Part shown: one piece after another, positions 52,101 to 55,100 of the stretch | How positions within the stretch are numbered: the stretch's first letter is position 1 | Layout: every line of letters starts with the position of its first letter | From: Branchiostoma lanceolatum | Taxonomy: Eukaryota; Chordata; Leptocardii; Amphioxiformes; Branchiostomatidae | Length of the DNA: 64,000 bases | Direction: 5' to 3' | Assembly: GCF_035083965.1 (NCBI RefSeq) | Contig: NC_089732.1 | Coordinates: 9,122,424-9,186,423, forward strand | The notes under the pieces: generated by a model | The model's database searches: none | Told to the model about the DNA's origin: nothing | What the model saw: the letters and a program-made list of their open reading frames with translations, nothing else | Translations under genes and position numbers: made by a program

Positions 52101-55100
52101 TCCCACATCACCATAAACAGAAATTTGTAGAATATTTCACTATACCTTTAGGACCACTTCTGATACATTTCCATATATAGAGTTCTACTGAGATCTGAAT
52201 GATTAACAGGGTTCTCTTAGATATTATTCTTAAGCCAACATTTTGAGATTCATGAAGGGTCACAGGATTCTCCTCAAAAAGAAACACCCCCAGGTGGTTG
52301 AAAGACAGCATAGGGGGTCCAAATCACAGCATAGGGGGCCATATGCTCAGACTATGGAAGCGAGAACACTGGTTAAGATATTTCTGGTTATGTACAGAAC
52401 AAGTTGCCGGAGCTGTGGGCCCTGTTGAACTTCCTCCTACCCTCCATCTTCAAGTGCTGCGCCACCTTTGAACAGTGGTTCAACGCACCATTTGCCGCCA
52501 CTGGGGACAAGGTAATGTTTCTGTGATCATTCTTTTATACCATGCATAATCAAGTTATACCACATAGGTTCGAGCTTCTTTAGAAGGGAGTAACTTGTGC
52601 AGTATTCCTTTGAAATTGAATCGTTAGAAGGTGTAAAAATGTAAAGAAAATCATGATGGGACCTCAAGAGAACATGAAATTCAGGGTAAGAGCTATATCT
52701 TCAACAAAGTCTCACATATGGTATGATTACAATAACACTTCAGATGGTACGTACATGTACATCTTAGCATATCCTCCAATCAAGTATTTGATCAAGAATT
52801 AATATTTTTCTTTACCACTTTGCTGTAAGACCATAGTCATTTGTTAAAAGTTGATGTGAAAACATGGGAAAAATCTTGCAGAAAAGTCGAAATTCATCTG
52901 TCTTTTCTTGACCAGGTGGAACTGAACGAGGAAGAGACAATCCTGATCATCCGTCGTCTCCACAAGGTGCTCCGGCCGTTCCTTCTGAGACGTCTCAAGA
53001 AGGAGGTGGAGTCTCAGCTACCCGATAAGGTAAGATGCTCTTGCACAAGATTTTATTTTTACCAAAGTTATTTAGCCAGCGAAGTGCATGATACAAAAAC
53101 TTTCTTGACACTGCTAGCATGCTCTCTGTGATTGCTTTTTGGAGACACCTCAGGGGTGAGCCTAATACTTGATTTTTGTAAGACTGGATTTTTTTCTTGT
53201 TTCAGGTTGAGTATGTGGTGAAGTGCGAGATGTCGGCGCTTCAGCGTCTGCTGTACAGCCACATGCAGTCCAAGGGCGTTCTGCTGACGGACGGGTCCGA
53301 GAAGGATAAGAAGGGACGCGGCGGAACCAAGACACTGATGAACACCATCATGCAGCTCCGCAAGATCTGCAACCACCCCTTCATGTTCCAACATATAGAG
53401 GTAAACTTCACTAAATCTGTAACCACCCCTTCATGTTCCAACATATAGAGGTATACTTCACTAAATCTGCAACCACCCCTTCATGTTCCAACATATAGAG
53501 GTAAACTTCACTAAATCTGTTACCACCCCTTCATGTTCCAACATATAGAGGTAAACTTCACTAAATCTGTAACCACCCCTTCATGTTCCAACATATAGAG
53601 GTAAACTTCACTAAATCTGCAACCACCCCTTCATGTTCCAACATATAGAGGTAAACTTCACTAAATCTGTTACCACCCCTTTATGTTCCAACATATAGAG
53701 GTAAACTTCAATAAATCTGCAACCACCCCTTCATGTTCCAACATATAGAGGTAAACTTCACTAAATCTGTAACCACCCCTTCATGTTCCAACATATAGAG
53801 GTAAACTTCAATAAATCTGCAACCACCCCTTCATGTTCCAACATATAGAGGTAAACTTCACTAAATCTGCAGCCACCCCTTCATGTTCCAACATATAGAG
53901 GTAAACTTCAATAAATCTGCAACCACCCCTTCATGTTCCAACATATAGAGGTAAACTTCAATAAATCTGTAACCACCCCTTCATGTTCCAACATATAGAG
54001 GTAAAGTTAAAACCCCACTAAATCTGCAACCACCCCTTCATGTTCCAACATATAGAGGTAAACCCCACTAAATCTGCAACCACCCCTTCATGTTCCAACA
54101 TCACTAAATCTATAACCACCCCTTCATGTTCCAACATATAGAGGTAAACTTCACTAAATCTGCAGCCACCCCTTCATGTTCCAACATATAGAGGTAAACT
54201 TCAATAAATCTGTAACCACCCCTTCATGTTCCAACATATAGAGGTAAACTTCAATAAATCTGCAACCACCCCTTCATGTTCCAACATATAGAGGTAAACT
54301 TCAATAAATCTGTAACCACCCCTTCATGTTCCAACATATAGAGGTAAACTTCACTAAATCTGCAGCCACCCCTTCATGTTCCAACATATAGAGGTAAATC
54401 CCACTAAATCTGTAACCACCCCTTCATGTTCCATCATATAGAGGTAAACTTCACTAAATCTGCAGCCACCCCTTCATGTTCCAACATATAGAGGTAAACT
54501 TCACTAAATCTATAACCACCCCTTCATGTTCCAACATATAGAGGTAAACTTCACTAAATCTGTAACCACCCCTTCATGTTCCAACATATAGACTGAGCTA
54601 AACTTAGGTTAGATACTTTACCTTAGATTTTGACTGTACAGTTTAGTTTCACACGTCTTTCCTCCTGTTTGTTGTCTTTTAAAGCTTCTATTTTTACTAA
54701 GAGATATTTGAATTACAAATTCTGACTTTGTTTTTATTTTTTCCACAGGAAGCATATGCAGAGCATGTTGGATCCTCCTCAAACATTGTGAATGGGTGAG
54801 TTGTACTGATCATTGTCGAAAAAGAGTACATGATTCACCATACACATAAAAACTGTACCTTTTGTCCTTGTATCTCGTCCAAAAATTTTCTACAAAGTTG
54901 GTCAGATTTTAATACATGAAATTGAAAATCTATTTCCAGCCCGGACCTGTACCGTTCGGGAGGGAAGTTCGAGCTGCTTGACCGTATCCTGCCGAAGCTC
55001 CACGCGACGAACCACCGCGTGCTGCTGTTTTGTCAGATGACCTCGCTGATGACCATCCTGGAGGACTACTTGAACTACAGGGGTCAGTTCTATACCCAAC

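Follow-up and report, generated by a model that had tools for sequence, protein, structure and literature searches.

Introduction

Tandem repeats that span exon/intron boundaries, called mirages, were named in the Adh3 gene of the amphioxus species Branchiostoma floridae and B. lanceolatum and are also reported from the globin genes BflGb6 and BflGb9, with AG/GT signals in many units (PMC3087553). The same paper states that the clusters vary in length, that units of the BflGb6 mirage evolve in concert while its edges have diverged, and that reverse-transcription polymerase chain reaction of mirage genes suggests no interference with splicing (PMC3087553). Mirages are also described in PGBD5 and troponin C (PMC3902484). 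In the Rogers model, introns are gained by tandem duplication of AGGT, with ATP2A1/ATP2A2 and fission-yeast examples (PMC4974935), and DOK7 intron 4 is an example of competing alternative 5′ splice sites (PMC5585400). Here we describe a 25-unit array at a splice donor of a predicted SMARCA4/2-type chromatin-remodelling gene, at positions 53365–54607 (+ strand) of a 64,000-nt stretch of B. lanceolatum DNA (the window; contig NC_089732.1, positions 9,122,424 to 9,186,423). The array is a further instance of the published amphioxus mirages rather than a novel type of structure. It is most probably a tolerated, homogenised intronic minisatellite of which the exon-attached first donor is the one used.

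Results

The array is built from 25 units with a nominal length of 50 bp, each comprising the final 36 bases of an exon and the initial 14 bases of its intron. Tandem Repeats Finder (TRF) and the anchor count thus bear out a preliminary description of this DNA, which had reported about 25 copies of an exon end with its 5′ splice site at 53350..54600. Its account of the unit, about 35 exonic plus 15 intronic bases, was correct in make-up and is here refined to 36 plus 14. The anchor CCACCCC occurs 25 times in steps of 50 bp, save for 57 bp between units 13 and 14 and 36 bp between units 15 and 16. TRF returns a period of 50 at 53365–54101 (score 1285) and periods of 100 and 150 at 53365–54592 (scores 2057 and 2064). 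Anchor spacing and a donor scan show that unit 13 is 57 bp long and that unit 15 (54072–54107, 36 bp) has lost its donor through deletion, while pairwise alignment reveals that unit 25, the downstream edge copy (54558–54607), is decayed, carrying a 4-nt insertion and GAG|CT in place of GAG|GT. The remaining 23 units keep the GAG|GT donor, one authentic and 22 extra; most of the additional units therefore recreate a donor, as had been claimed, the number of extra donors being 22 rather than 24. The exact donor GAG|GTAAAC (GAGGTAAAC) is present in 20 of the 25 units, and in a search of the + strand this 9-mer was absent from the rest of the window. These 20 occurrences, confined on the + strand to the array, together with the TRF scores of 2057 and 2064, rule out a chance repeat.

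The host gene was modelled on the + strand as 15 exons (49784–59776), with borders set by eye and upstream exons lying outside the model. When joined, these exons encode an 838-aa conceptual protein with no interruption, a single chain that matches the Pfam families SNF2-related, Helicase_C, SnAC and bromodomain, and whose best solved relative is BRG1, aligned across residues 2–838. By this predicted protein the gene is of SMARCA4/2 (BRG1/BRM) type, in agreement with the SMARCA4/2 helicase gene named earlier, the assignment standing at the SMARCA4/SMARCA2 level. The seventh modelled exon (53206–53400; 195 nt, 65 codons) holds the exonic part of unit 1 and ends at the donor GAG|GTAAAC. It is followed by an intron of 1348 bp (53401–54748), mostly array, and by a 47-nt exon (54749–54795) whose acceptor, ...CCACAG|GAAGC, has the top score among the 15 modelled acceptors. 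Introns of the gene are mostly 144–998 bp, its GC content at third codon positions is 0.78, and GC is about 40%, values that agree with a lancelet origin without being diagnostic of it. Duplication of splice boundaries was not found to be general to the gene: comparison of 30-nt windows across each boundary with the same strand within 3 kb (ungapped identity of at least 80%) singled out the array donor alone among the 30 exon boundaries compared (15 modelled exons). A stable RNA structure hiding the donors is likewise unsupported, as three units fold at −19.9 kcal/mol (z −1.23) and 27 of 200 shuffles are equally stable. Known RNA families gave zero matches in 52900–54900 at E up to 0.1, and ARAGORN found no tRNA in the window.

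Frame translation gives a single outcome for all of the extra donors. The open frame runs from 53182 to 53448, and every would-be isoform that uses donor 2 or later (22 of 22) first meets the same in-frame TAG at 53446–53448. Both the read-through stop at 53446 and the production of an intact protein from the first donor only had been predicted, and they hold exactly. A stop upstream of later exon junctions leads to nonsense-mediated decay (NMD), and since seven more modelled junctions follow the junction with the next exon, later-donor transcripts would be expected to undergo NMD.

Measured against the other donors of the gene, the authentic donor is weak. Its matrix score of 3.97 is the second lowest of 15 (median 8.16; matrix built leave-one-out from the donors of this gene), and its predicted U1 pairing of −6.9 kcal/mol is tied as third weakest (median −7.5). 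Within the array, the U1 5′ end is predicted to pair at −6.9 kcal/mol with all but one of the 23 donors, the exception being that of unit 2 at −5.8. The donor of unit 21 (GTAAAT) scores 5.15 with the same matrix, above the authentic one. Three GTs outside the unit donors also exceed 3.97, two of them within the exon (53294, 5.84; 53245, 4.52) and one just past the array (54607, 4.05), which indicates that matrices built from just 15 sites of this gene are crude.

The units are very alike, as the preliminary description had noted, with a mean identity of 95.3% among the 22 regular 50-bp units (units 13, 15 and 25 excluded) and with unit 1 equal to their consensus. Differences between units follow a short-range two-unit periodicity (means of 2.58, 1.84, 2.71 and 2.12 at lags 1 to 4). 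A C/T variant at position 6 alternates 19 times along all 25 units against 12.5 expected (P=0.007, 20,000 shuffles), the test having been picked post hoc once the pattern was seen. Positions 53873 and 54216, 343 bp apart, share an identical block no shorter than 120 nt, as expected from multi-unit exchange. This shared block and the short-range periodicity support homogenisation of the array, which had also been proposed. When translated in the exon frame, 14 of the 25 copies yield the 12-residue peptide of the exon end and 11 differ (four N to S, two N to Y, two C to Y and three others), so the protein sequence does not constrain the units.

Splicing from a later donor would retain a piece of the array, and since the exon boundary reads AG|GT, each of the 22 possible pieces starts with GT and finishes with AG. 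The AG at the AG|GT junction, which would restore the message exactly, scores −2.0, a value reached by 37% of the AGs in the window and exceeded by all 15 real acceptors (lowest 0.98, leave-one-out). The unit TAG two bases upstream of it scores 1.28, above the weakest real acceptor only and reached by 17% of window AGs; splicing to it would retain 2 nt and shift the frame. The CTGCAG candidate of unit 11 scores 2.89 (reached by 11% of window AGs), and with these three values strong internal acceptors are unsupported. About 34 nt upstream of the TAG of the next unit lies CACTAAA, with a pyrimidine-rich stretch between as read from the sequence; by consensus this heptamer is branch-point-like. 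It has become CAATAAA in seven of the 25 units by a C-to-A change, creating AATAAA, the canonical poly(A) hexamer, beside the donors (at 53710, 53810, 53910, 53960, 54203, 54253 and 54303). No GU-rich element was seen by eye downstream of these hexamers, and for this reason no poly(A) ladder is claimed.

Other repeats lie in or near the gene. An element resembling a miniature inverted-repeat transposable element (55896–56532) occupies another stretch of intron of the SMARCA4/2-type gene, with 152-nt inverted repeats that are 93% complementary and 333 nt apart; on either side, at 55836 and 56577, lie 44-nt direct repeats (84%). An imperfect 30-bp tandem repeat of six copies (50680–50860) is intronic and away from modelled boundaries. 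About three diverged copies of a 98–118-bp tandem repeat (47766–48095) start some 60 bp past an apparent exon end, judged by eye (ATCATCAC|GTAAGG, 47705) and do not span that boundary. Inverted-repeat pairs are found in the upstream gene region at 41785–42030 (95-nt arms, 91%) and 40317–40507 (50-nt arms, 96% complementary). On the − strand, an open frame at 36597–37469 has a Pfam match to AKAP7_NLS (E 1.3e-34), the 2′5′ RNA ligase-like domain of AKAP7, and a frame at 7158–7505 is fatty-acid-binding-protein-like (Lipocalin_7, E 4.2e-06). Frames at 6731–7006 and 2547–2867 (−) resemble the latter by eye, that at 2547–2867 having no Pfam match at 0.001. A dual-specificity-phosphatase-like exon lies at 21378–21671 on the − strand (Pfam DSP-PTPase phosphatase family, 27.8 bits); by eye it looks CDC14-like, Pfam giving the family only.

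Discussion

The array is best read as the product of tolerated unequal exchange begun at a splice junction, an origin that the preliminary description had listed among its options and that fits published amphioxus mirages by analogy. A 50-bp segment across the exon/intron boundary would have been duplicated in tandem, and the copies would then have expanded and been homogenised via unequal exchange, conversion or slippage. Coding for protein and providing the working donor, the exon-attached copy would remain under selection. The remaining 22 donors would sit in the intron and be removed along with it, since the first donor closes the normal 195-nt exon and later ones lengthen the exon into the TAG at 53446. 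Any leakage to later donors would yield stop-containing transcripts, probable targets of NMD. Several observations weigh against this account. SRSF1 favours the intron-proximal donor, which here is a later one, according to earlier work summarised in PMC5585400, so that the first donor need not be the one chosen. At longer lags the two-unit periodicity weakens. Finally, 11 of the 50 positions are variable among the 22 regular units, and just two of these 11 fall within the 31-nt core at positions 9–39 (hypergeometric P=0.001, the core having been chosen after inspection of the data), a sparing that is not an obvious prediction of plain drift plus exchange.

The same arrangement could instead serve regulation, with donors of equal, weak strength in competition for U1 and the level of the remodeller tuned, via the stop and NMD, by how often later donors are used. 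The equal predicted pairing at 22 of 23 donors and the stop in all 22 alternative products speak for such a device, and the weakness of the authentic donor (3.97; −6.9 kcal/mol) makes U1 competition plausible. However, these features arise from any duplicated donor, and mirages studied elsewhere reportedly leave splicing undisturbed; we consider a regulatory device improbable on this sequence, which lends no positive support to the U1 sink or the NMD-coupled donor competition raised in the preliminary description. Alternatively, the retained pieces might be repaired, since splicing from donor 1 to a junction AG would restore the exact mRNA and render the array harmless, or make of it a ladder for recursive splicing. 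The GT...AG bounds of all 22 pieces, the branch-point-like CACTAAA with its pyrimidine-rich stretch, and the functional introns already known to result from tandem AGGT duplication (PMC4974935) speak for such a fail-safe, which we nevertheless consider improbable. Its restoring acceptor, at −2.0, falls under all 15 real ones, and the better TAG (1.28) leaves 2 nt and shifts the frame; on these two grounds re-splicing is not taken as the principal explanation. Extended to mirages at large, the idea would be that these arrays persist because they are self-repairing, each working as a recursive-splicing ladder whose end product is invariably the correct mRNA. We give this generalisation little credence; if true, donor-side mirages would be restricted to AG|GT boundaries and would leave unit-to-unit lariats.

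An array of this kind might also owe its length to the assembly, through inflated copy number or mis-joined units in a draft genome. In one draft genome the BflGb6 mirage was misassembled (PMC3087553), and the window contains a 100-N scaffold gap at 1401–1500. Yet that gap lies about 52 kb from the array. The units also differ among themselves, with some variants common to several units and others confined to one, two units deviate in length, and the edge copy is decayed; we regard an artefact as very improbable. The true copy number may differ from 25.

How the spliceosome chooses among donors of equal strength is mostly investigated in constructed minigenes. Here a natural gene presents 23 near-identical donors, mostly in 50-nt steps, before one acceptor, with an intact product solely from the first, so that position effects such as exon length, first-come choice and proximity should be readable in long-read RNA. 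The locus is most useful as a natural experiment in how one of many identical donors is chosen; the array also bears on the origin of mirages and on the possible seeding of new introns. It was not found in full-text searches, none of which was made by gene name, and it may yet have been described in print.

The likeness to the amphioxus mirages lies in structural features read from one haplotype. The array is a tandem repeat across an exon/intron boundary, carries AG/GT splice signals in 23 of 25 units, and shows concerted evolution with a diverged downstream edge (unit 25) comparable to the boundaries of the BflGb6 cluster; its upstream edge copy is the coding copy and is identical to the consensus. 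It differs in its SMARCA4/2-type host gene and in having 25 units of 50 bp on the donor side. The BflGb6 mirage has units of 150–160 bp in six and three copies on the acceptor side. At its 3′ boundary, exon 2 of BflGb9 has a unit of 157 bp, units of 10–72 bp occur in Adh3, and the PGBD5 repeats, described as imperfect, are 60 and 108 bp long. As in the Rogers model of intron gain, duplication of AG|GT yields segments bounded by GT...AG, but the duplication here sits at a donor that was already present and lengthens the intron behind it. The array shares with DOK7-type competition the presence of multiple donors per acceptor whose choice sets the frame, while offering 23 near-identical candidate donors in place of two of unequal strength.
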